Shown here: one piece after another, positions 1-46,785 of the stretch | Layout: each line of letters starts with the position of its first letter | Numbering within the stretch: position 1 is the first letter of the stretch | IMG/VR virus record: IMGVR_UViG_3300005518_000021 | Coordinates: 1 to 46,785 of that record | DNA from: a virus | Reading direction: 5' to 3' (one strand) | DNA length: 46,785 nt | Made by a program: the position numbers and the translations under genes | The notes under the pieces: generated by a model | What the model saw: only the letters and a program-made list of their open reading frames with translations | The model's database searches: none | What the model was told of the DNA's origin: nothing

Positions 1-90
1 TTCTCGTAGCCGGAGACGCCCAGCTCTTGCTCGCCGAGCGTGCCGCCGAGAGAGATGCGCTGGAAATCGTTGCCGCGGCGCAGTATGTCC
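1..90. repeat. Terminal direct repeat, left copy
   Basis: These 90 bases are identical to 46696-46785. A coding frame continues in phase through the joint, so this is most simply the overlap left by assembling a circular or circularly permuted molecule. That gives a unique length of 46,695 bp. A true 90-bp physical terminal repeat cannot be excluded from sequence alone. Confidence 0.95.
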
Positions 91-1691
91 GCTGTCCAGC
101 GTGTGGCGCCGGGGGCCTGGACGTCGTGGACGATCGCGGAGGCGAGCTCCTCGTTGTTTCCGAGAGGCTGCCAGGGGATGGACTGAGTGGCGTCGTGGAT
201 GAAGGGGGAGGCCATGCCGGGGTGGCCGGTGGCGGCGGCTCCTGCGGGGACGGGAGCATTGGCGCCGAGAAGTTCCCTCTCTTGGAGCCCAGGAAGGAAG
301 CGCTGAGCGGCGCGGTTGATATCCTGGCTCGAGAGTCTGAAGGTGCCGGGCTCACCGAGCATGGCCCCAGGAGGGCCGACGTCATGGAAGCCCATCTGGC
401 CGAGGACGCCGCGCAGAGTGCTGTCGCCGGGGACGCCGTGAATTGTGATCGGGCCGGGCACATCGCGCGCTACCTGGCTGAGGGTCTGGCCGAGGCCGCG
501 GTAGGCGCGAAGAGCGGCGCGGGGGTTGTTCTCAACGGAGTAGACGCCGGGAATGTCGAGGCTAAGACTAGAGCGGCCCAGGTCGGGGAGGGACTCAACA
601 TGGTAGCGCAGGGAAGGCAGCTCCACACCAGCCGCCGAGCGCGCCGCAGTCCGTCCCTCCTCGGTGAGCGTACGCGCGCGACTAAGGGGCGCTCCCATCA
701 AGTCGCCGGAGAAGCCCCGAACAGTCCTGCCACCCATCTCCGTCTCCTGCCAAGGGAGAGTGGAGATATTGAGCTGGCGAACGGGGGTCGCGGTTTCTTC
801 TAGAGTTTGCCGGGCCGTGGTCTCGGCAAAGGCGCGCCCCAGCTCACCCAGAGCGTCGAGACGGCCGGCGGCCTGAGCCTCTTCAGCTACCTTGAGGGCG
901 CGAGCGGCCTTGTAAGCTCTCAGGCCCTTGATGACCTCGCCGACAGGCAGAGCCATCGCCGCGTTGGAAGGGACGAGGATCTGCGAGCCTGCCCAGACGA
1001 GAGCCCTTTCGACGTTGTCGGGCAGGATCGGCTTGAGAGGAGTGATAAGGGCTTCGGAAAGCGGCCTCCCGATATGCTCGGACTCCCAATCGAAAGGCGT
1101 GTTGAGGGTGGTTAGAGCTGTCCCGGCGCCGGAGGTGAGGTCGCGGATGACGCTGCCGATGCCGGCGCGGGGGAGGTCAGAGCGGCCAGCGGTAGTCTGG
1201 AGCTCCTTGAGCTTGGCCGTCAGCTCGCGCAGGCGGGCGAGGAGGGCAGGGTCGAGGGGGCCGGCAACCGGCGAGAGGGCTGCTCCGCCGGGTCGCGCAC
1301 CACCGGCTCCCCCGCCGCCCAGTATACGCGAGATGTAGGTCTGAGTTTCGCGGGGGAGATAGGTCTGCCAGTTGGCGCCCTTGCGCAGAGCCACGTCCAC
1401 AGCGCCGGGGCCGGCATTGTAGGCAGCGAGGGCAGCGGCCACGTTGCCGCTGTAGCGCTGGACGAGAGAGCGCATCCAGTTGGCTGAGTAATGAAGGGAC
1501 TCAAGGGGGTTGAAAGGGTCGACGCCGGGGTGATACTTAGGGACGATCTGGGCGATGCCGGCGGCCCCGGCGGAGGAGACGGCGCGGGGGTTGAAGCCAC
1601 TCTCCGCGTTGATTTGCGAGGTGAACCAGGAGCCTAAGCCGTACTGGCGGCCGATCCCCTCTGTGATTGTCCTCCAGTCGGCGGACGCCAT
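1..1691 (-). CDS. Giant virion protein with lytic transglycosylase domain, N-terminal part
   Basis: This is the first part of a protein that runs through the circular joint and ends at 41760 (6627 nt, 2208 aa). The start is the ATG at 1691, just after the LysM gene that ends at 1694... on the same strand. Residues 1-125 form an SLT (lysozyme-like) domain: NAESGFNP with the probable catalytic Glu at residue 30, then SSAGAAGIAQIVP and AAYNAGPGAV. Such domains cleave peptidoglycan. In podoviruses they sit on internal proteins ejected with the DNA (T7 gp16 is the model), and that role is inferred here. Around residues 200-250 lies a segment (FDWESEHIGRP, ALITPLKPILP) that recurs later in the same protein. 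No stop codon interrupts the frame down to base 1. Confidence 0.9.
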   Translation of the reverse strand, partial: MASADWRTITEGIGRQYGLGSWFTSQINAESGFNPRAVSSAGAAGIAQIVPKYHPGVDPFNPLESLHYSANWMRSLVQRYSGNVAAALAAYNAGPGAVDVALRKGANWQTYLPRETQTYISRILGGGGAGGARPGGAALSPVAGPLDPALLARLRELTAKLKELQTTAGRSDLPRAGIGSVIRDLTSGAGTALTTLNTPFDWESEHIGRPLSEALITPLKPILPDNVERALVWAGSQILVPSNAAMALPVGEVIKGLRAYKAARALKVAEEAQAAGRLDALGELGRAFAETTARQTLEETATPVRQLNISTLPWQETEMGGRTVRGFSGDLMGAPLSRARTLTEEGRTAARSAAGVELPSLRYHVESLPDLGRSSLSLDIPGVYSVENNPRAALRAYRGLGQTLSQVARDVPGPITIHGVPGDSTLRGVLGQMGFHDVGPPGAMLGEPGTFRLSSQDINRAAQRFLPGLQERELLGANAPVPAGAAATGHPGMASPFIHDATQSIPWQPLGNNEELASAIVHDVQAPGATRWTADILRRGNDFQRISLGGTLGEQELGVSGYE

Positions 1692-1693
1692 CT

Positions 1694-3892
1694 TTAGGTA
1701 ACGGCTAGACGGGCAGCGCCGGCAGTCTGGCCCAGCGTCGGGCCGCCGAAAGCGACCGAGCGCAGGGCCTGCTGTAGGTCCAGGATATTCTTCGGGATGT
1801 TGACGTCGCCGGAGAGGGAGCCGAGGGTGGCGAGCAGGGCGTTACGGGAGGTTTCGGGGAGCCCAAGGATAGCCATCAGCGGGAAGCGGGTGCCGGGCGC
1901 CTCGACGATATTCCTGACGTAGGGGTCGATGTTGGCGCCAGCCCCATAGAGGGCTTCGTAACCGGCGGTGCCGGGAGCCGGCTTGAGCGTGAGGCCGCGC
2001 AGGATGTCAGAGACATTGCGGCCCTCACGCAGGAGCTGAGAGAGAAGGCCGCCGGGGCCTGCTTCCGTGCGGATGCCTTGCGCTGTTTCTTCCTTGGTCT
2101 TCTCGGCGGGACCTTGGCCGGTCACTTCCGCCGAGGTCGCTGCGGTGGGAGAGCCTATAGCAGCGAGAGGTTGTGCGGCGCCGGCAGGGGCGGCAGAGGT
2201 GGCGGCAGCGGCGTTGCCGGGGATGACGAGCGTGGTGCCGGGCGCGATGCCCGCCGGGTTGAAGTCGGGGGGAAGGCCGGAAGGGCCGAGCAGCTCGGGC
2301 CAGCGCGCGCCGGAGCCGAGGAAGCGCTGAGCGATGCTCCAGAGCGTCTCGCCGGGCTGGACGATGTAGGTCTGGACGCCGCTCTGAGCGCGGGGGACAG
2401 GCGACGACACGCGGGGGCGCTCCGCCTGTCCCCCTGCCGATCGGATGACCGCTTGCAGGGTCTGAACGATCTGGTCGGGGGCGAGGCCGTTTACGAGGTT
2501 GCCGTCGGCGGAAGAGGTGGGTTTTGTTCGGCGGCCACCGTGGACGATCATCTCGGCGACGGCGCGCTGGGCCGTATCCATGTCAGGCTTCTCGCCGGGG
2601 ACCATCGGGGCGATCACGGAGCCTGGCGCGAGGTAGGCGAACTCGGCGGTGCCTGCTTTGACACCCTCGTCACGTTTGCCCTCACCGAGGAGGAAGTAGC
2701 CAGGGGAGGCAATCAGGTCGCCCAGCTTGAGCCTGACGATGGCGCCACGAGAGCGGCCGCGTCGTTTGCGGAAGGAGGCGCGGCTCCGCGCTCGGGCGCG
2801 CGCGCCCAGCTCACCGATCACATCTTCGCCGAGGAGGTTCTGGCCACGGAGCTTACGGTTGATGAGCTCGGAGACGCCGGCGACGGGAGTGTTCTTCATT
2901 ACCTCGTCGTCGGCGGCCAGCGCGTTGAGCTGGGCATCGGAGAGACCCTTCAGGTAGTCGCGCCAGCGGTTGCGTACGGTGACTTCGCCGCTGATCTCGC
3001 GGCCCCCGCTGAATGTCTTTGTGCGACCGGACTGAGAGAGCTCTTGCTGGGCCTGGAGGAACTGCTGCTTTGCTGTTTGCAGGTAAGCGCGCGAGGCCGC
3101 CGAGGACCCGCCGGGGGCGGGGGTCGGCGTGGCCGTCTGACCTTTGGCGGTGCCACCGCCCTTCTTCGGGATGCCGAGCCGCTTTGCCATCTGCTGAAGG
3201 GTCTCGCCGCCGGCGGGAGTGGAAGCGGAAGCGGCGGCATCGGCGGCTGCGGCCGCATCAGGGGTGATGTCCATAACGCCGGGGGCGAACTTCGGCATGA
3301 GCAGATCGAGGAGCTGCTGGAAGGACATGACGGGGAGCTTCTCGAGCTGGCCGGCCAGCGTGCCGCGGGAAGAAAGTTCTTCCTGAGCGAGCTTGGAGGT
3401 GTCGAAGGAGGTGCGGGAGGCCAGGTTGGCGAGGTCGCCTTGAGGTTCTCCCAGGCCCGCGGTGAGCGCGAGCATCCGTATCGTGTTGGCCGGATTTTGC
3501 GCGGCCTCGGCGAGCAGCTTCTTGTAATCGACGGTGGGCTGGATGGCGCCCGTGCGCAGGGCTTCGACGAGGGCGGTCTGAGCGGCCTGGGGGTCGGAGG
3601 CACCGGAGACAGAGGGAGCGACCAGGCCGATCTGGGCGAGCGAGTCCATCATTGACTTGACTATGCTGGAGGCGAGGGTGGCCGCCCCGGCGCGGGCGGA
3701 GGCTTCGGTAGTGTACTGCGTGCGGCCGGTTTCGGCGCTCTGCTGGAGCTCCGCGATCTCGCGGGAATAGTCGGGAGCGCGAGAGGCTTGCGCGTAGGCG
3801 ATCAGGTCCTGGAGGGAGAGGCCCGTGAGGCCGCTGGCGTCGACGGCGGAAGTGGGATTGACGATAGAGCTGAGGGCGCCGGAGAGAGCCAT
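1694..3892 (-). CDS. LysM-containing virion protein
   Basis: This is a 732-aa protein with an ATG start preceded by an AGGAGG site (3903-3908). The clearest domain is a LysM repeat at about residues 505-560 (YIVQPGETLWSIAQRF ... GTTLVIPG), a fold that binds glycan chains of peptidoglycan. The rest is Ala/Gly/Pro-rich with helical stretches and a basic patch (RARARSRASFRKRRGRSR, about residue 365). It is followed after 2 bases by the start of the transglycosylase protein, so the two are probably co-translated and may work together at the host cell wall during DNA entry. The role is inferred from the domain and position. The family of the remaining sequence is not recognised. Confidence 0.8.
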   Translation of the reverse strand: MALSGALSSIVNPTSAVDASGLTGLSLQDLIAYAQASRAPDYSREIAELQQSAETGRTQYTTEASARAGAATLASSIVKSMMDSLAQIGLVAPSVSGASDPQAAQTALVEALRTGAIQPTVDYKKLLAEAAQNPANTIRMLALTAGLGEPQGDLANLASRTSFDTSKLAQEELSSRGTLAGQLEKLPVMSFQQLLDLLMPKFAPGVMDITPDAAAAADAAASASTPAGGETLQQMAKRLGIPKKGGGTAKGQTATPTPAPGGSSAASRAYLQTAKQQFLQAQQELSQSGRTKTFSGGREISGEVTVRNRWRDYLKGLSDAQLNALAADDEVMKNTPVAGVSELINRKLRGQNLLGEDVIGELGARARARSRASFRKRRGRSRGAIVRLKLGDLIASPGYFLLGEGKRDEGVKAGTAEFAYLAPGSVIAPMVPGEKPDMDTAQRAVAEMIVHGGRRTKPTSSADGNLVNGLAPDQIVQTLQAVIRSAGGQAERPRVSSPVPRAQSGVQTYIVQPGETLWSIAQRFLGSGARWPELLGPSGLPPDFNPAGIAPGTTLVIPGNAAAATSAAPAGAAQPLAAIGSPTAATSAEVTGQGPAEKTKEETAQGIRTEAGPGGLLSQLLREGRNVSDILRGLTLKPAPGTAGYEALYGAGANIDPYVRNIVEAPGTRFPLMAILGLPETSRNALLATLGSLSGDVNIPKNILDLQQALRSVAFGGPTLGQTAGAARLAVT

Positions 3893-14709: not shown

Positions 14710-15582
14710 ATGGCTTTGCCCAAATTAGCGGCCGGTGCGCATGGCGTCGGTTGGGGCAACTGGTTTGTCTCCGCCGTCGCCGATTATTACCTGCGCCAGA
14801 TTATGGTACTGGCGACGCCGACGAGCAAGCGGTACGAGAAGACGCAGAAGTGGACGCGAGCGAAGCTGGCGGCGCACACTCAGGAGCTTGCCGATCAGAT
14901 GGCTCACTATCTCATCATCGCCTGCGGTGGCGAACTACGGCATGGCAAGACGGCGAAGTGCCGCAAGATTCTCGGGGCGATTGCCGTCGAGGAGCAGGAC
15001 AGAGCGGCGGCTTGGTCGGAGTGGGAAAAGCACGTACGGCCAGAGGAGCAAGAGGACGAGAAGCTGGCCGAGATCATGCGGATAGCGGCAGAGGCGTTCA
15101 GAAGAGGCGGGTTTCGCGGCTCTTTCGGCGGCCCGCTGTGGGCGCGCGGCGCCGACTACGCTGCGGCTTACTTGGACGGCACAATGCACCCTGATCGCCG
15201 AGCACGGCCAGCAACGCTGATGGTCGAGTTCTGCCTGAACCTGCATCACAATACGGGAATCATCTTCAACAAGATGGGCGGCGATATGGCAACGCTCGGA
15301 GTGCTATTGGGCGCCGGCCACGACTACAACGGCGAGGAGAGCATCGAGCAGATGATGCTGGCGAGCGCGACGCCGCCTTGCGTGATGGACTGGCACGAAT
15401 GGGCGGTGGAGGTCAGGGGGGTTTCCGCCCCTGCCAGCATCGCGCCCGAGCCGAAGCCTGCGGCGGCGGCGAAACCAACGTCCAAGCCGGAGCCGGACGC
15501 GAATCCACTGAAGGTAGCGAAAAAGAAGACGCTTACGATGGAAGGAAACGACTCATGGCAAGACATTCTCAAAAGCCTTTGA
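14710..15582 (+). CDS. Unrecognised protein with conserved-looking Trp and His motifs, 290 aa
   Basis: The start is ATG 14710, 10 bases after AAGGGAG; the TTG at 14701 is too close to that site. The N-terminal 230 residues look like one globular domain with GVGWGNWFV near the start, a helical middle (EQDRAAAWSEWEKHV), and MVEFCLNLHHNTGIIFNK around residue 180, which reads like an active or binding site. A Pro/Ala/Lys-rich linker and a short tail (MEGNDSWQDILKSL) follow. I do not recognise the family. It overlaps the phosphatase gene start by 28 bases, so the two are probably co-translated. Confidence 0.75.
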   Translation: MALPKLAAGAHGVGWGNWFVSAVADYYLRQIMVLATPTSKRYEKTQKWTRAKLAAHTQELADQMAHYLIIACGGELRHGKTAKCRKILGAIAVEEQDRAAAWSEWEKHVRPEEQEDEKLAEIMRIAAEAFRRGGFRGSFGGPLWARGADYAAAYLDGTMHPDRRARPATLMVEFCLNLHHNTGIIFNKMGGDMATLGVLLGAGHDYNGEESIEQMMLASATPPCVMDWHEWAVEVRGVSAPASIAPEPKPAAAAKPTSKPEPDANPLKVAKKKTLTMEGNDSWQDILKSL

Positions 15583-16145
15583 GCCACTATTTCCCGAACC
15601 AGTACGACGACGAGGACGCGCCCAAGCGGGGGACCTTCGAGTACGCGAAGAAGTGGGAGCCGCTCGCGCCGCGCTGCACCGGTCACTACCGCGCGCCGCT
15701 CAGCGTAGGGCCGGGCAAGGTACTGGTGACGAGCTACCGCGCGGCGGTTCCGGAACACTATCTTGGGCCGCAGCCGGACGGGGGAATCTACCTTGCCGAG
15801 CAATGGCTCAAGCGCATCGGCATGATCGGGACGGGAATCATCACGGGGTTGCGGCACCCCACGGTCTACATCGATTGGCCGGACATGACGGCGCCGCATC
15901 TCAGGTACGCGCAACTGGCCGTGGAATGGGCGAGGGAACGGCTTGACAAGGGCGGCGCTGTCGAAATAGCCTGCGTCGGGGGTCATGGCCGCACCGGCAC
16001 GTTGACGGCATGTTTGGCGGTGTCGTACGGCCACAAACCGGCAGAGGCAATCGAGTACGTGAGAAAAGGAGTTTGCGAAAGCTGCATCGAGACTAAGAGC
16101 CAGAAGGAATTCATCCACAACTTCAAGCGCATGAGAAGGGAGTAA
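15555..16145 (+). CDS. Protein tyrosine / dual-specificity phosphatase-like protein
   Basis: This is a 196-aa protein. ACVGGHGRTGT (about residue 139) is the CX5R phosphate-binding loop of Cys-based phosphatases, with catalytic Cys and Arg present. DWPDM about 40 residues earlier fits the WPD loop that carries the general-acid Asp. The family removes phosphate from Tyr or Ser/Thr residues, or from phospholipids or RNA ends. The substrate here is unknown. The start is ATG 15555 after AAGGAA, inside the end of the preceding gene. A longer frame beginning at 15378 is a shadow of that gene. A phosphohistidine domain gene lies 430 bp downstream. Confidence 0.82.
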   Translation: MARHSQKPLSHYFPNQYDDEDAPKRGTFEYAKKWEPLAPRCTGHYRAPLSVGPGKVLVTSYRAAVPEHYLGPQPDGGIYLAEQWLKRIGMIGTGIITGLRHPTVYIDWPDMTAPHLRYAQLAVEWARERLDKGGAVEIACVGGHGRTGTLTACLAVSYGHKPAEAIEYVRKGVCESCIETKSQKEFIHNFKRMRRE

Positions 16146-16150
16146 CGAAC

Positions 16151-16573
16151 ATGAAGGCAATCGCGATCATCCGCAAGATCGACACTGAGACTGAGGGCGG
16201 GCCGGCGAAGGTAGCGGGGGTGCTCTTCCGCACCCAGGACGTACCGGCAAAGCTGAGCATGAAGTCAGTCAGCCTCAGCCGTGCCGACGGGGGCTGTGTG
16301 TTCCCGATCACGGAGCTGAGCGCTCACGACGGTCACGCTCCGCCGTGGTTCGTGAAGGGGGGAACCGAGGAGCAGAAGGACGCGGCGAGACTGCCTGACT
16401 ACGTGGGACGCGTCTTCGGGGCGATTCAGGAACACTGCGGATACGGCGCACCGAAGGTCAGCGTGGTCTTTCCCGACAGCGAGCCGGAGCCAGCGACGGG
16501 GGTCGTTGAGGCGGTACAGGCGGCGCTGGCCAAAGAGACGGACGCAGCGGTCGTTGCGGAGTGGGGGGCGTGA
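16151..16573 (+). CDS. Unrecognised protein, 140 aa
   Basis: An ATG 9 bases after AAGGGAG. It is a mixed alpha/beta protein starting MKAIAIIRKIDTE, with acidic middle and end and no catalytic motif that I recognise. It lies between the phosphatase and the phosphohistidine domain, overlapping the latter as TGATG, so the three are probably made together. Confidence 0.7.
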   Translation: MKAIAIIRKIDTETEGGPAKVAGVLFRTQDVPAKLSMKSVSLSRADGGCVFPITELSAHDGHAPPWFVKGGTEEQKDAARLPDYVGRVFGAIQEHCGYGAPKVSVVFPDSEPEPATGVVEAVQAALAKETDAAVVAEWGA

Positions 16574-16902
16574 TGCCTTCCACTCCCGTTATTCTGAGGG
16601 GACGGACGGCCAGCGGCGGGGCGGCGCGCGGGGCGGCGAAGATCATTCGTAGCGAGGATGATCTCGCCAAGGTGCAAAGGGGCGATGTGCTCGTCGCTGA
16701 GTTCACGCGGCCCGAGTACGTTACGGCGATGGCGCTGGCGTCCGCTATCGTGACGGAGATCGGCGGGTCGATGTGCCACGCGGCGATCATCGCGAGGGAG
16801 TACGGGATTCCCTGCGTCGTAGCTGTCGCGGGAGTGCTGGCGGCGGTCGAGGACGGACAGATGATCGGCGTCAATGCGGACGCGGGGACGGTGCTGCTGT
16901 GA
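16573..16902 (+). CDS. Stand-alone PEP-utilizer mobile (phosphohistidine) domain
   Basis: All 109 residues match the swivelling domain of PEP synthase, pyruvate phosphate dikinase and rifampicin phosphotransferase: an early G-rich segment TASGGAARG, GDVLVAEFTRPEYV, IVTEIGGSMCHAAIIAREYG and GIPCVVAV. The His in CHAAIIARE is the residue phosphorylated in those enzymes. The ATP-grasp and substrate-binding domains that normally accompany it are absent from the gene and its neighbours. It could accept phosphate from a host enzyme, act as a decoy, or work with a phage partner. All three are inference. The start is ATG 16573, overlapping the previous stop. Confidence 0.85.
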   Translation: MPSTPVILRGRTASGGAARGAAKIIRSEDDLAKVQRGDVLVAEFTRPEYVTAMALASAIVTEIGGSMCHAAIIAREYGIPCVVAVAGVLAAVEDGQMIGVNADAGTVLL

Positions 16903-17180
16903 GCGCGACCAGCGGGTTGCTATCGGATGACTGGACGCCGCCCCTGATAGTGGTCGAGGTTCGCGGAGGGGCCGTCCAAGACATTTACACCAATGCGCTG
17001 AACGCAGATGATCCGCCGTTTCATGTGCTGGTCGTTGACTGGGACAGCGTGAGCAGTACGCCGGTCACGGACGAGACATTCGAGGAGGGAGAGCCGCCCG
17101 CCGTATTCAATTGGCAGTCCTGCACGCCGTGGGAACACGCACCGGCAGAGACAAAGGCGGCGGTCGATGCGGAAGTTTAA
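16899..17180 (+). CDS. Acidic unrecognised protein, 93 aa
   Basis: GTG 16899 overlaps the stop of the phosphohistidine gene (GTGA). The protein is strongly acidic, with VVEVRGGAVQDIYTN and VLVVDWDSV as probable strands. Its C-terminal 14 bases overlap the next gene. The pattern resembles small phage proteins that mimic nucleic acid charge, but nothing specific supports that. Confidence 0.65.
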   Translation: MSATSGLLSDDWTPPLIVVEVRGGAVQDIYTNALNADDPPFHVLVVDWDSVSSTPVTDETFEEGEPPAVFNWQSCTPWEHAPAETKAAVDAEV

Positions 17181-18998: not shown

Positions 18999-19427
18999 GT
19001 GCTGCACGTCGCCATCGAGCTTGGCGGAGGGGACGACGCTGTCCTCGTCGCCGCCGCTCTGGAGAGGTCCTACGCCGCCGTTTGTCTGGAGGCGTACAAG
19101 AACGGCAGCGCGCCGCCGCCAACGGCCCTGCCGTCCGTCGTGGCCTCAGCGGTGCGGTTCTGGACGGCGCGGCGGGCGATCCAGGGCAACTTCACGCCGC
19201 TCACCGACGGGCTCGTGCCGGTCTACCACGTCCCCGCCAGGGGCTGGGCGCTGTTCGCTAACGGCGTGTCCTTCGTGGTGGGGCGAGGTGAGGGAAGAGT
19301 GCTCGGCGTCTTTAGCAAAGAACTCCCGGCCGGGTGCGTGAAGGAGAACGGGCAGCTCGTGATCTCGAGACAGGCGAAGGGGTGGCTGGCGAGCTTTGAG
19401 GAGAGAAAGGAAAGCGCCGATGGCTGA
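18999..19427 (+). CDS. Unrecognised protein, 142 aa
   Basis: The start is GTG 18999, 3 bases after the RHH stop. It has a helical N-terminal half with Ala-rich helices, and a beta-rich C-terminal half (LVPVYHVPARGWALFANGVSFVV, GRVLGVFSK). No motif is recognised. It overlaps the next gene by 8 bases. Confidence 0.65.
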   Translation: MLHVAIELGGGDDAVLVAAALERSYAAVCLEAYKNGSAPPPTALPSVVASAVRFWTARRAIQGNFTPLTDGLVPVYHVPARGWALFANGVSFVVGRGEGRVLGVFSKELPAGCVKENGQLVISRQAKGWLASFEERKESADG

Positions 19428-20325
19428 ACGCAAAACGCGACGATTGGCTGCCTGCGACCGGTGCGGGGAAAAGCGACCGCTGTTGGAATATCCGAACACC
19501 GATGCGACAGGCTCCGCGTGGAAATCGTTGGTTTGCTGGCCGTGTGTTCAGGCTGAGCTTGCCGCAGCGCAGGCGCGGGCCGAGGAGGCCGTGCGTCAGG
19601 CAACAGCAGCACAGGATGCGCTGAGTCTCGGATATGAGGGACAGCAGGCGCGGATAGCGGAGCTTGAGAGCGAGTTGACGGAGATACCCGACGCACTACG
19701 CCAGACAATCCGGTTAGGGCGGATGCCACCATTCACAGACGAGAAGTCTGAATCGCTTACTCGCGTCGCTATCACGCAGGAGGCGCTGGCACTTCTGCTC
19801 GAAGCGAGTGCAGAAGTCGTGCGCTGGAACAGAGCCATCGTGGATGACGACAAGGCCGCTAAGTTCGACGGAGATGCAGCATTCGAGGCATTGGAATCAG
19901 CCGCTGCCCGTGCTGCCCTCTCCGACGCCTCTGAATGTCCGCGCTGCAAGGGGAGCGGCCACGAGCCGTCAGTCAGCACGTTTGTCAAGGGTGACTGTGA
20001 GCAGTGTGGCGGCAGCGGGAAGTCTGAGTGCCCGCACAAGGCTGAGGCTGAGCGGCTTCGAGCGGTGCTTGCCTTCTACGCTGATGAGCAGAATTGGGCG
20101 CCAGGGCTAGGTGGGCGCATCATCTATGCCTGCCAGATAACCAATGACAAAGGCCATAAAGCTCGTGCGGCGCTGCTGGCCGAGGCGGGGAGTCGCGCCG
20201 ACGACTTGAGAGAAGAGCGCAAAGCCGAGAAAGCACAGCGTACATACGCAAATGCAATTGGTACAGGCTCATTCGATGCGGCGGAAGAATGGCATGATCG
20301 GAACGAGGCGGAGGAGCGCAAGTGA
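19420..20325 (+). CDS. Coiled-coil protein with DnaJ-type zinc fingers
   Basis: The start is ATG 19420 after a purine-rich site. The 301-aa protein has an N-terminal four-Cys segment (CDRCGEKRP ... CWPC), a coiled coil at about residues 45-85, and two CxxCxGxG repeats (CPRCKGSGHE and CEQCGGSGKSEC, about residues 175-205), the pattern of the DnaJ cysteine-rich domain. No J domain is present in this gene; one is found in the gene at 23450. The nucleotide composition looks less GC-biased at third positions than its neighbours, which may indicate separate acquisition. The function is unknown. Confidence 0.7.
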   Translation: MAERKTRRLAACDRCGEKRPLLEYPNTDATGSAWKSLVCWPCVQAELAAAQARAEEAVRQATAAQDALSLGYEGQQARIAELESELTEIPDALRQTIRLGRMPPFTDEKSESLTRVAITQEALALLLEASAEVVRWNRAIVDDDKAAKFDGDAAFEALESAAARAALSDASECPRCKGSGHEPSVSTFVKGDCEQCGGSGKSECPHKAEAERLRAVLAFYADEQNWAPGLGGRIIYACQITNDKGHKARAALLAEAGSRADDLREERKAEKAQRTYANAIGTGSFDAAEEWHDRNEAEERK

Positions 20326-41759: not shown

Positions 41760-44700
41760 TTACTGGATCTGGCCGGCCGCGATCGCCGCGATCTCCGGGT
41801 CGCCGGAGAGACGGTTGAGAATCTCCGCGCGGGCGAGGAAGGGGGCGAACGTCTTCGGGTCGAACTTAATCATGTCCGGGTTGTTGACCAGGATGGCGTC
41901 GCGGGCGCGGTTACGCAGGATCGGCTTGAGCTTGTCGTTCGACCAGAGTGTCTCGAAGAGGATGGCAGCGCGCCGTTTGGGGTCCGTGGCTTGATTGTAG
42001 AGGCGCAACATGAGCGTGCGGCGGAGGCCCTCCGGCATGTCCACGGCGACGGGGCCTGAGATCTGGCGCTGGACCTGGATCGTAAGGGCCTTGAACTCGC
42101 GCCGGAAATTAAAGACCTCCTGGAGCAGGTCCTTCGGCATCTTCTGGCCGTTGGGCAGAACGTAGGGCGGCTCCTCGAAGAACTGGTTGGCAGCCTCCTG
42201 GGCAGCGACGCGGCGCAGCTCCGTGGCCTGCGCGACGGGGTTGCGGTAGCGCGTGGCCACAAAGTCGCGCAGCACGTAGTCCTTGGTGGCCTGGTCTTCG
42301 CCGGCGAGGACGGCAAGACGGCGAGCGCGAAAGTCAGTCCAGGCGTTGTCCGTGCAGGCCGCCGGGTCGTCGGAGAGCGGGCAGGCTTCGAGTTCGGGGC
42401 GCGTCGTCCAGTATTTGACGGCGACCTCGTCCTGGTGCAGGGCCGGACGGCGGCGGGCCAGGTCGGAGTCGGCCTCTTCCGCGGAGCCCCAGAGGTCCTT
42501 CTTGAGGTTCTCAGCGCGGTCGGCGCGGTTCTTAAGCAGATCAGCAGACGCCTGGGCGAAGGCGGACTCGAAGCCGGGCTTGTTGGCACGGGCGGCGATC
42601 ACCTGGTCCATCGCCACGTTCATCTGCTCGGTGGACTCCTGAATGCCCTGATAGAAACCGTTGATAGGGCCTCCCCGGTCAGAGCGGTACTTCTGCTGTC
42701 TGCGCTTGAGCATCTGGAGATAAGGGTCGGTGTTGTAGTAGCGGCGGATGGTGGCCTGATCGACGTTCTCGAAGGGGACGCCGGCCAGCTCCTCGATGCG
42801 GTCGCGGGCGAGGCGGAAGGGCGTCTTCGGGACGGTGACGCCGCCCAGGAACTCAATCGCCAGGCGCTGCGCCAGCTCGGTCTTCGGAATGTCGCCCTCA
42901 GCCTGGGTCTCCCAGACCTCCTGGCCCATGACGGGTAGCATCTCCTTGATGAGGTACTGGACGTTGTCGTCGATCTTGCGGCCGAGGAAGTCCTCGCCGG
43001 AGGCCAGGTCAACAGCGATGCGAGGAATTTGGCCGGAGCGTCCCTCCGCGAAGTTGAAGAAGTCGCTGAAGCGATTGCGCAGGGAGTCGAAGTCGTCGGG
43101 GTTGCCGGCGAGGAGCTGAGCGGGGAGCCGGTAAACGCGCATGTTGGGGAGGAGGCTGAAGCGGCCCCAGGGCGCCTTGACCTGGAGGAACTCCGGCGAG
43201 CGGGGGTCGAAGGACGGCATCTGGCCGGAGAGCGACATCGAGATCTTGGAAGCGAGCAGGGCGCCCACGGCGAGCTGGTTCATGAGCAGCCAGCGGGCCA
43301 CGATGCCCTGCGGGCCGGCGTGAGCGGCGTTTGTAATCATGCCGATGGAGCCGCGTGTCCAGGAGGGCGTGAGCACGAAGAACTTCTCGAAGAAGGAGGC
43401 AACATTGCGGGCGTTGACGGCGGAGAAGTTGATCGGCCCAATCGCGTTGTTGAGCCCGCCGGCGACGGCCTGAGCGATGTCCTCGTGGGTAGCATCGGCC
43501 AGCCCAGGCTTGATGTCCTTGACGGCTTTGCCGACGAAGGGCAGAGACTTGAGCAGCCCGAAGATGTCGGGGGAGTCCTTGGCGAGCAGCATGGAAGTCT
43601 GCATCGTGTTGGCGAGGCGGATCTTAGCGACCTGGATCGTGTCCATCATCTCGCGGTTGAAGGCGCCGATAAGCGAGATGGGGGTGTGGTAGCCCCCGAT
43701 CTTGCCGATCTTCTCGAGCATGTCGGGGCGCAGGTCGAGGGGGTTGCCGAGAGTGAGGCCGTGAGAAGTCCAGTATTGGATATTCGGGAGGTTGGAGATC
43801 GCCCAGAGGCGTTTGCCGTGGCGGGTGGCCATCCAGTTAGCGCCCTCCCCGATGGCCCCGAAGTAGGCGACGGGGTCGGCGGCGAAGGAGCGCATCCCCT
43901 GGACGAGGCCGAGGGGGGAGAGGTCGGCGGAGAGTAGAAAGCCGCGCATCGTGTCGAGGGCGCCGCCAACGGCCGACTCGATGCCCTCTGAGCGGAACTG
44001 GGACTTGAGCATGGCGTCGAGGGTGGTGGCCAGCTCGCGCTCGGGCTGGGAGACGAAGCGGCTGGGTGGAACGGCGCGTAGCTCGCGGGAGGTGACGTAC
44101 TTGATGAGCGTCTGGTCGCCGAGCTTGGAGAAGTCCTCGGTGAAAGGAGCGCCGCCGGCGTCCAGGGCCTCCACGATCCCCTCGAAGGGTATGCCCGCGG
44201 CGGAAGCGGCCTCGCGCACGGTGGGAGCCGCAGACTTGGGCAGGAGGACAGCGGGCCGATCGACGAGGTTGGCGGTCTCGGGGACACGCTTGAGCACCTG
44301 GAAGAGGTACTGCTCGGTCTTCTTACGGGCCATCGCGCCCAGACGCCACTCGAGCAGGTTGCGCATGTCCGTCTCGACGCCGGGGCCGGTCACTTTGAAG
44401 CCGCGCTGGATGGCTTGGTCGGTGAGTTCGGAGCCGATCTCGACGAACTTCTGCCAGTCGTACTTGCGCCCCTTGAGAGTGGCCGCGTAGCGGGGGGAGT
44501 TACGAGCGGCGGCGAGGAAGTCGTCGAACTCTTTTTGCTTGACGGGCGAGTAGCGGGGGAGAGTGAGGCGGTGGGGCGTACCGTAGAAAGCGGCCTCGCC
44601 GGCGCTGATACCCATCGCCAGTCCTTCGGAGAGGTCGGCGTCGAGGATGTCCTTCTGGACGAAGTTCATGACCTTCTTCTGGTAGGCAGTGAGGCCCTCG

Positions 44701-46785
44701 TAGAGGTTGGGCTGGTTGAAGATGTCGGCGAGGGTGCCGCGGACGCCGGCAGAGATCGGCTTGGCGGCCCAGTCACGAGCGGCGACGGAGCTGCCCAGTT
44801 TGACGCCGTCAACGACAGCGCCCTCGACGGCGTCCTTGCCGAAGGCGGACTCAAGCAGGAACTGGGCTGTTTGAGCCGCCGTGCGGTACTGGAAGTTGAA
44901 GGCTTGGCCGGCGTTGGAGGCGGCGAACCAGGGGCGGCGCAGGACATCGTAGCGGCCCATCGCGATCGGCTGGACGACCTCTGTCCAGGCTTCGAGGGCC
45001 TTGCCTACGACAGGCGCGTTCTTGAGCGGGCTAAAGACGCGGGAGATGAAGTTAACGTGGGAATCGGGGAGGAGCCGCGGGTCGAGCTCGTACTGGCGCA
45101 GGAGGCGCGCCGTCCAGGCGTTGTTCATGAAGTATTGCTTGCCGCGCGCGACGGTAGAGCCGAGGGGCAGGCCCCCGGAGATCGACTCCTTGATGAAGTT
45201 GAAGACGAAGGGTAGGTCGTCGTCGGTGAGCTGGCGCTGGTCGAAGGAGACGCGCCCGGAGGTGAGCTTGCGGAACTTCTTGATCGCGTTGTTTTCGGAC
45301 CAGATGGACTGGGCGAGCTCGGGTTTCGTGAGCATCTCGTCGAGGAGCTGGGGGACTTCCATGCCGAAGCGCTTGGCGACGCGGACTTCGGCGAGCTGGC
45401 GTGAGGAGGTGGCGAAGAGGGAGCCGAGAGAGAGGCGGCCGATGGTGGCGGCCTCGTCCAGGGTGCGCCCTCCCTTGAGGACATCGAAGGAGAGGCGCCC
45501 GAGGAGGGAAGAGGCGGTGGCAGCGCGGCCGAAGGGAACAAGGCCCAGGGCGATTGACGAAGGGGTGAGGAAGGACCCGCCAACCTGGACGATGACGTCC
45601 TGGGCCGACTTGGGGAGGATGGGAGTGAGAGGCGTGATGAGGGCGCGGGTAGCCGGCTGGCCGATGTGTTCGCTCTCCCAGTCCAGGTAGTCGGAGACGC
45701 CGCGCACGACAGGATTCTGGGTGGCCGCCTTGAGTCCTTGCAGGCCGGTGACGCCGATCTTCTCGAGGCCCTGCGTGATGACGCCGAGCTGGGCGCGCCG
45801 GAGCTCTTGAAGGGGCAGGATGATGGCGCCCTCGTCGAGATGACGGAAGGTCTCTTCGGCGGGGAGCCAGAGGTCGTAGCGAGAGGACGGGCGAGGGCGG
45901 AAGCCACCGTACATGTAGAGGGCGGCGCGCCATTCCTGGATGACCTGGCGGCGTCCCTGCTGCACGCGGGAGTAGAACTCGTTGCGGGTGCGGGAGAGCT
46001 CGGGGTCAAAGAGGATCTTGAGGAGCTGGCGGCGCCGTTCGGACTCGGTGGCCAGGCCGGCAAAAGGGTCGACCCCGTACTTGGCGACGATTTCATTGAA
46101 TCCGCCGACGGGGGAGTTGACCAGGTCGAAGCGGCCGGGGTTGGCCTCGCGGAACTTCTTGAGAGAGGCCGCCATCTTCGGCCAGTCGGCGAGGGAGCCG
46201 GCGCCCCCTTCGGAGCCGGAGATAGTGACGTTAAACGCGGGGATGCCCGGACGGATGCCCTCGGCGGCGTCGCCTACCTGATGCATAGCGATCGTGCCTC
46301 TGGCGCCGGGCGGACTGAGGTAGACGCCCGTCTCGTTGCCGTAGGTGTGTGTACGGATACCCAGCTCTTCCGCGTTCTCGGGGACCGTCACACGGACGAA
46401 GTTCGTGGCCGTGCCGCGGATGCGGCGGGTGAGGAGGGGGAGCTCGTCGTGGGCGCGGGCGGCGTCGATCGCATTGCGGGCGGCGAGGTGGATGTCCCGG
46501 TCCGTCCAGTTGGCGGCCTCGTAAGCGGCGCCCATGATGCCACCCTCGGGGGTTGACGCGCCGATTGCACCGAGGAAACGGCGGACGACGGGATCGCGCG
46601 CACCGTGCAGGTCCTCGGGAATGAAGACCATAACGGGACGGGTGGGATCCCCCTGGGCGATGCGCCGGGTCAGCAAGCCGAGGTTCTCGAGAGCGTTCTC
46701 GTAGCCGGAGACGCCCAGCTCTTGCTCGCCGAGCGTGCCGCCGAGAGAGATGCGCTGGAAATCGTTGCCGCGGCGCAGTATGTCC
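41760..46785 (-). CDS. Giant virion protein, C-terminal part
   Basis: This is the continuation of the 2208-aa protein started at 1691 (joined at base 46695). It is about 1640 residues without a recognisable enzyme motif, largely Ala/Leu-rich and predicted helical. It is probably an internal (ejection) virion protein, by position between portal and capsid genes and by size. The segment LDWESEHIGQP...ALITPLTPILP at about 45690-45540 is a diverged copy of the one encoded near 1100-940. The TTG at 46676 should not be taken as a start, because the frame is open upstream through the joint. Downstream, 70 bp separate it from the scaffold-like gene start at 41689, which is transcribed before it is reached only if the late transcript covers the whole arc. 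Confidence 0.85.
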   Translation of the reverse strand, partial: DILRRGNDFQRISLGGTLGEQELGVSGYENALENLGLLTRRIAQGDPTRPVMVFIPEDLHGARDPVVRRFLGAIGASTPEGGIMGAAYEAANWTDRDIHLAARNAIDAARAHDELPLLTRRIRGTATNFVRVTVPENAEELGIRTHTYGNETGVYLSPPGARGTIAMHQVGDAAEGIRPGIPAFNVTISGSEGGAGSLADWPKMAASLKKFREANPGRFDLVNSPVGGFNEIVAKYGVDPFAGLATESERRRQLLKILFDPELSRTRNEFYSRVQQGRRQVIQEWRAALYMYGGFRPRPSSRYDLWLPAEETFRHLDEGAIILPLQELRRAQLGVITQGLEKIGVTGLQGLKAATQNPVVRGVSDYLDWESEHIGQPATRALITPLTPILPKSAQDVIVQVGGSFLTPSSIALGLVPFGRAATASSLLGRLSFDVLKGGRTLDEAATIGRLSLGSLFATSSRQLAEVRVAKRFGMEVPQLLDEMLTKPELAQSIWSENNAIKKFRKLTSGRVSFDQRQLTDDDLPFVFNFIKESISGGLPLGSTVARGKQYFMNNAWTARLLRQYELDPRLLPDSHVNFISRVFSPLKNAPVVGKALEAWTEVVQPIAMGRYDVLRRPWFAASNAGQAFNFQYRTAAQTAQFLLESAFGKDAVEGAVVDGVKLGSSVAARDWAAKPISAGVRGTLADIFNQPNLYEGLTAYQKKVMNFVQKDILDADLSEGLAMGISAGEAAFYGTPHRLTLPRYSPVKQKEFDDFLAAARNSPRYAATLKGRKYDWQKFVEIGSELTDQAIQRGFKVTGPGVETDMRNLLEWRLGAMARKKTEQYLFQVLKRVPETANLVDRPAVLLPKSAAPTVREAASAAGIPFEGIVEALDAGGAPFTEDFSKLGDQTLIKYVTSRELRAVPPSRFVSQPERELATTLDAMLKSQFRSEGIESAVGGALDTMRGFLLSADLSPLGLVQGMRSFAADPVAYFGAIGEGANWMATRHGKRLWAISNLPNIQYWTSHGLTLGNPLDLRPDMLEKIGKIGGYHTPISLIGAFNREMMDTIQVAKIRLANTMQTSMLLAKDSPDIFGLLKSLPFVGKAVKDIKPGLADATHEDIAQAVAGGLNNAIGPINFSAVNARNVASFFEKFFVLTPSWTRGSIGMITNAAHAGPQGIVARWLLMNQLAVGALLASKISMSLSGQMPSFDPRSPEFLQVKAPWGRFSLLPNMRVYRLPAQLLAGNPDDFDSLRNRFSDFFNFAEGRSGQIPRIAVDLASGEDFLGRKIDDNVQYLIKEMLPVMGQEVWETQAEGDIPKTELAQRLAIEFLGGVTVPKTPFRLARDRIEELAGVPFENVDQATIRRYYNTDPYLQMLKRRQQKYRSDRGGPINGFYQGIQESTEQMNVAMDQVIAARANKPGFESAFAQASADLLKNRADRAENLKKDLWGSAEEADSDLARRRPALHQDEVAVKYWTTRPELEACPLSDDPAACTDNAWTDFRARRLAVLAGEDQATKDYVLRDFVATRYRNPVAQATELRRVAAQEAANQFFEEPPYVLPNGQKMPKDLLQEVFNFRREFKALTIQVQRQISGPVAVDMPEGLRRTLMLRLYNQATDPKRRAAILFETLWSNDKLKPILRNRARDAILVNNPDMIKFDPKTFAPFLARAEILNRLSGDPEIAAIAAGQIQ
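46696..46785. repeat. Terminal direct repeat, right copy
   Basis: This is the second copy of bases 1-90. The minus-strand frame of the giant virion protein runs through it, joining the part encoded at 1-1691 to the part encoded below 46695. Confidence 0.95.

Follow-up and report, generated by a model that had tools for sequence, protein, structure and literature searches.

PEP synthase and pyruvate phosphate dikinase (PPDK) share a domain order in which an ATP-grasp domain is followed by a swivel domain and, last, by the pyruvate barrel. Rifampin phosphotransferase (RPH) is a swivel dikinase with a non-pyruvate acceptor domain, in which Arg666, Glu667 and Lys670 lie around the phosphohistidine (pHis) (PMC4844700). 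Its domain order differs, with the His at the C-terminus. HpeHI, CreHI and PpsAB are dikinases distributed over separate polypeptides, with the swivel off the ATP-grasp chain and fused to the acceptor domain, and in the natural two-component HpeHI the swivel-bearing half alone transfers phosphate (PMC12167813). A Vibrio phage homologue has been published as a pyruvate-metabolism gene, with a PEP docking model (PMC12038007). Our literature search, for which subscription papers lay mostly outside coverage, found no description of a stand-alone phage pHis domain or of a phage dikinase-phosphatase module.

The locus described here lies in a viral record of 46,785 nucleotides (IMGVR_UViG_3300005518_000021), the whole of which is referred to as the window. 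The record has an exact terminal repeat of 90 bp, and a 2258-aa reading frame continues uninterrupted through the ends when they are joined at this repeat; the window therefore represents a closed circle of 46,695 bp and a complete genome. This long frame (41760-46676 joined to 1-1841, minus strand) adjoins the capsid genes, and the portion of it inside the record has no PHROG or Pfam match. The genes considered below are:

14710-15582, plus strand, from ATG: X, 290 aa, helical, PHROG 20946 family (phrog_20946, 2e-10), proposed acceptor-side domain
15555-16145, plus strand, from ATG: PTP2-type cysteine phosphatase (PF22785, 4e-8; PF22784, 4e-7; phrog_17568, 1e-23)
16151-16573, plus strand: 140-aa orphan between the phosphatase and pHis genes, not conserved
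16573-16902, plus strand: stand-alone pHis swivel (PEP-utilizers mobile) domain, 109 aa from ATG (PF00391, 9e-23)
16899-17180, plus strand: 93-aa ORF in the same direction, with a GTGA overlap with the pHis gene and no Pfam match

The open reading frame listing begins X at TTG 14701, and ATG 14710 was used here; the pHis gene has an alternative start at GTG 16561. The X and phosphatase genes overlap by 28 nt, 5 nt separate the phosphatase gene from the 140-aa ORF downstream, and the TGA of this ORF overlaps the ATG of the pHis gene (TGATG). A preliminary description had placed a CX5R/WPD phosphatase, a 140-aa frame and a free PEP-utilizer mobile domain side by side, the last two overlapping, with a 290-aa LHHNTGIIFNK protein overlapping the phosphatase gene, and the coordinates and the PF00391 match bear this out. 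Its account of the gene group changes in two respects: the 290-aa protein is part of the core rather than a side player, and the 140-aa ORF, which has no Pfam or PHROG match and no relative in the phage collection, drops out.

In tblastn searches, relatives of the window pHis domain turned up in Rhodobacter RcZahn, Rhizobium RHph_TM16, and Stenotrophomonas Summit, DLP3 and DLP5, where they are annotated as 'pyruvate phosphate dikinase', and each of these phages also holds a relative of the phosphatase a few kb away. In these phages and in Vibrio phages, the kinase gene is followed by small ORFs, a phosphatase gene, the gene of a protein of 326-357 aa, which is X, often another phosphatase gene, and then DNA polymerase. 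When IMG/VR and bacterial genomes were searched with profiles of X and of free pHis domains and each locus was annotated by HMMs, 78 distinct X loci emerged. A single-direction order of kinase (ATP-grasp plus pHis), PTP1, X and PTP2 is found in 39 of the 78, where PTP1 and PTP2 are the phosphatases upstream and downstream of X, and three further loci have kinase-PTP1-X (the Vibrio type). Seven carry pHis, X, PTP2 and ATP-grasp as four separate genes, and in two (L178 and L179) one protein of 810-815 aa comprises PF01326, PF00391 and X and is followed by PTP2. Four rows were labelled pHis-X-PTP2, one of which (L060) is a kinase cut at the contig end; pHis, X and PTP2 without an ATP-grasp are thus found in the window, with the order X-PTP2-pHis, and in three other, possibly incomplete contigs (L008, L076 and L135), those of L076 and L135 lacking a terminal repeat. 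There are seven X-PTP2 loci, one with a second X, and five with X only; the remainder are variants or lie on cut contigs. Most loci were retrieved by way of X, so that selection does not account for the phosphatase beside it.

The genes therefore stay together in related phages, and X and PTP2, whose frames usually overlap or abut, form the most constant pair. Judged from this linkage, they are the core of a widespread and previously undescribed phage module. Earlier, it had been suggested that the window genes form a phosphoryl-transfer module aimed at host metabolism or signalling; the module is supported by a fixed order in dozens of phages and by retained catalytic residues, and the aim is not. 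Scattered phage genes with doubtful names ('pyruvate phosphate dikinase', 'thymidylate synthase' or hypothetical) would thereby fall into a single recurring module of kinase, phosphatase and a new helical partner, present in phages that infect Rhodobacter, Rhizobium, Stenotrophomonas and Vibrio as well as in those of many uncultured hosts. Like HpeHI, CreHI and PpsAB, the module can be spread over separate polypeptides, but in those systems the swivel is fused to the acceptor domain, whereas in the phages each of swivel, X and ATP-grasp can be a chain of its own, and an ATP-grasp is missing altogether from the window.

The kinases themselves vary. In most phages, where X is a separate gene, the kinase has an unexplained C-terminal region of its own of ~200 aa, and the split ATP-grasp genes have PEP-synthase-like motifs on a reading of their sequences. 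The kinase of Vibrio phage vB_VneS_J26 (PMC12038007) is of the class A type, and the J26 record (PP534163) also holds a phosphatase relative; the accessible part of that report makes no mention of an X-PTP2 linkage. At L061:5566-6291 the kinase, of 242 aa, has apparently been shortened in frame: the first half of the ATP-grasp is left, followed by a tail with weak similarity to the last part of the kinase C-terminal region; this 89-kb contig has no pHis domain, yet PTP1-X-PTP2 is intact. A small ORF soon after the class A kinase (L002:6524-6832, with equivalents in L003 and L004) resembles the RNA-binding regulator CsrA, but the match is weak (PF02599; 4e-4, 0.2 and 0.17). At L207, X, ATP-grasp and pHis are separate matches in a further shuffled order, X-ATP-grasp-pHis.

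X of the window has no Pfam match over the cut-off, but matches the phrog_20946 profile with the invariant Y, E, R, GG, W, H, N and K kept. In window numbering the invariant residues include Y67, E75, R77, H180, N181 (the last two encoded from 15247) and K188 (15271), and its LHHNTGIIFNK corresponds to the LxHNxGxxFNK that is invariant in the 326-357-aa phage relatives. E, R, H, N, K, GG and W are retained in all forms of X at a mean identity of ~20%, and the retention of E, R, H, N and K at this identity fits an active or phosphate-binding site. In the L178 and L179 fusions X is C-terminal (residues ~496-632), so that the domain order is that of PEP synthase and PPDK, with ATP-grasp and a pHis swivel bearing the catalytic His, but with X in place of the PF02896 barrel. 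RPH offers a second parallel, as a swivel dikinase whose Arg/Glu/Lys acceptor site resembles the invariant E, R and K of X; we regard this as an analogy of residues and claim no homology, and no sequence or fold link was found between X and the rifampin-binding domain.

A model of X with L054 as the first sequence is nearly all helical (pLDDT 93.9, pTM 0.88). Compared with the PDB it has no match (Foldseek best E 0.37, VIA best Z 4.0), which does not by itself prove a new fold, and the same comparison gave no fold link to a known acceptor domain; against BFVD there are four matches with E below 0.001 and a fifth, weak one. An earlier model with the window sequence first was poor (pLDDT 69), and its 14-3-3-like matches were discarded as noise. 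X also lies in the C-terminal half of a 794-aa ORF (L053:6765-9146); a GGTVVSH stretch before it is possibly a decayed swivel, without statistical support, and hhalign and HMMs did not support the N-terminal half as a decayed kinase fused to X.

The phosphatase of the window is predicted to belong to the PTP/DSP class, with a CX5R P-loop (C140, codon 15972; R146, 15990) and a WPD general-acid Asp (W108-P109-D110; D110, 15882). It passes the Pfam cut-offs of the Tc-R-P and PTP-SAK families given above, with which it shares the DSP-PTPase domain and CX5R, although it is paired with X and a pHis carrier and not with a toxin or Swiss Army Knife protein. CX5R is kept in 131 of 135 phosphatases, the other four being cut or frameshifted ORFs. 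The two types differ at position C+4, which is His (CxGxHGRTG) in 57/57 phosphatases downstream of X and in 0/48 upstream; CVGGHGRTG in the window phosphatase therefore marks it as the X-adjacent PTP2 type, and the upstream type was found only beside a kinase or on cut contigs. The phrog_17568 members examined match cysteine phosphatase families, and the 'thymidylate synthase' label is unsupported.

These observations lead us to favour, with some reserve, the reading that the window holds a reduced phage swivel dikinase: the swivel would be charged, pass its phosphoryl group to an acceptor-side X, and PTP2 would reverse the transfer. In the full forms, the ATP-grasp domain would phosphorylate the His of the mobile swivel, which would then dock on X, where the acceptor is held, and hand the phosphoryl group to it; the X-adjacent PTP2 would take the group off again. 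In the window, the carrier would have to receive its charge from a source that the phage genome does not encode, or else run without ATP, taking phosphate from a phosphorylated molecule. The best reading of X on these grounds is as a putative acceptor-side domain of a new swivel dikinase that PTP2 reverses, and we infer that PTP2 acts on the same product. Against the acceptor role, the ~200-aa C-terminal region of the kinase could be the acceptor domain instead.

An unlikely alternative makes X the protein substrate in a regulatory switch, with the swivel His phosphorylating X, for instance at the invariant Tyr or His, and PTP2 dephosphorylating it. Both Y67 and H180 are available, and this reading accommodates the constancy of the X-PTP2 pair as well as the loci where carrier and ATP-grasp are both missing beside it (L010, L027, L077 and L073). 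One of these belongs to a complete phage genome of 50 kb (L072/L073; 99-bp terminal repeat) that has neither carrier nor ATP-grasp and in which two X paralogues flank one PTP2, so X may work without the relay. However, a fusion at the position of the PEP barrel and the invariant E, R, H, N and K better fit an active site, and the linkage would be identical if the phosphatase acted on a product that X releases. An obligate relay role for X is also opposed by X standing alone in a candidate-phylum bacterium: at L080:6273-8537, on a 368-kb contig of a candidate Uhrbacteria genome, it ends a probably helical-repeat protein, with no phosphatase match nearby, and is possibly a cellular X.

For an acceptor-side X supplied by a swivel, the window poses the question of loading. 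That the loading domains are missing had been noted earlier and proved correct: PF01326 and PF02896 are absent, and a profile of the split phage ATP-grasps, in a search without a positive genome of its own, has no match in the window. This absence carries weight only because the genome is complete. The pHis domain itself has an intact TxxGGxxxHAAIIARE motif, with the catalytic H69 (codon 16777-16779) being the His of CHAAIIARE, and this His is kept in 63/63 cases; the best matches of the domain include the RPH entries 5fbs and 5hv1 of the PDB. When 88 swivel domains were placed in a tree, the free ones from the window, L008 and L076 fell within a bacterial PEP-synthase-type clade (100/96 support), and the pHis domains of the phage kinases grouped with bacterial PPDK. 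A second tree of 38 rows again placed free pHis with the PEP-synthase type (100/99) and rejected its union with the phage-kinase domains (AU p=0.0014), on which ground its origin as a clipped phage kinase is rejected; the alignments have 122-125 columns, the window row is on a long branch (2.2), the group tested was named after the first tree had been viewed, and the three free domains are possibly not a single lineage. On these trees, the free swivel is of PEP-synthase-type ancestry, separate from the phage-kinase pHis. The X-PTP2 core thus occurs with swivels of two lineages, which argues for a functional tie between the swivel carrier and this core. Single-sequence IMG/VR searches with the window's own proteins gave no matches, and a 2-row pHis alignment matched L008 alone; wider alignments were needed. 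A distant pHis match in MT835728 was set aside, as the domain ends a 520-aa ORF and no module is nearby.

Given its ancestry, host PEP synthase is the first loading candidate, and we infer that a host ATP-grasp protein loads the free swivel in trans, PEP synthase or one of its relatives being most likely. A fuller version, in which an HPr-like swivel charged by a host ATP-grasp is redirected by X, as a new acceptor class used with PPDK and PEP-synthase swivels, to an acceptor of the phage's choosing, with PTP2 as the off-switch, is tentative and to our minds still rather doubtful. The natural split, fused and carrier-only versions make trans-loading of the swivel directly testable. The host enzyme would not be needed if the window encoded a diverged, unrecognised ATP-grasp or other loader, which would alter the loading step alone. 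Many window genes have no assignment and phage proteins diverge fast, but PF01326 was detected in 8/9 sister contigs and the split phage ATP-grasp profile matches nothing here, and we consider such a loader improbable. That the free domain acts as a decoy or inhibitor by occupying host PEP synthase or PPDK at the ATP-grasp domain, a possibility raised in the preliminary description, would suit a PEP-synthase-type domain with its full catalytic motif in a genome that has no loader; it is nevertheless very unlikely, since sister phages bring their own ATP-grasp beside the same three genes, which a decoy would not need, and co-inheritance with X and PTP2 would be left unexplained.

A further view takes the kinase as an auxiliary metabolic gene, a PPDK boosting host carbon metabolism of which the window would hold a remnant; it draws on the published reading of the Vibrio phage homologue with its docking model and on the PPDK-like ATP-grasp and pHis parts, on which the published name also rests. 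PF02896 is absent from 14/14 records (the window and 13 relatives, including RcZahn, Summit, TM16, Ares1 and SIO-2) and was found in 14/14 control genomes, which makes 'pyruvate phosphate dikinase' an apparent misnomer. For the Vibrio phage homologue, the supposed barrel spans residues 524-691 and has four strands (PMC12038007). The phage systems also differ from PEP synthase and PPDK in encoding a cysteine phosphatase, and the window pHis is not derived from the phage kinase; we therefore give this view very little credence, and the basis for counting such phage genes as carbon-metabolism genes is weakened. Just as hard to credit is a free pHis gene that has lost its function and persists as a relic: lone swivel domains are unusual, and no PF00391 frame below 390 aa is among the matches listed for 100 Pseudomonadota genomes, but the motif is intact, the start of the gene overlaps the stop of the one before it, and free carriers are arranged in the same way in L008, L076 and L135.

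From its sequences, the module looks like a pyruvate-dikinase-type kinase acting on a non-pyruvate target. X and PTP2 carry Cys-rich, probably zinc-binding segments in L008, L010 and L076, and DnaJ-type repeats lie within X of L027 and L077, both by sequence reading with weak Pfam support. The appended zinc-type segments suggest a macromolecular setting for X and PTP2, and because they occur in several relatives our guess is that the substrate would be a hydroxyl on a macromolecule or one specific to the phage, and not pyruvate. In the window, a 309-aa protein immediately upstream of DNA polymerase (19396-20325) has a weak (0.004) DnaJ-type CXXCXGXG zinc motif, the same kind as is found inserted in X at L027 and L077.
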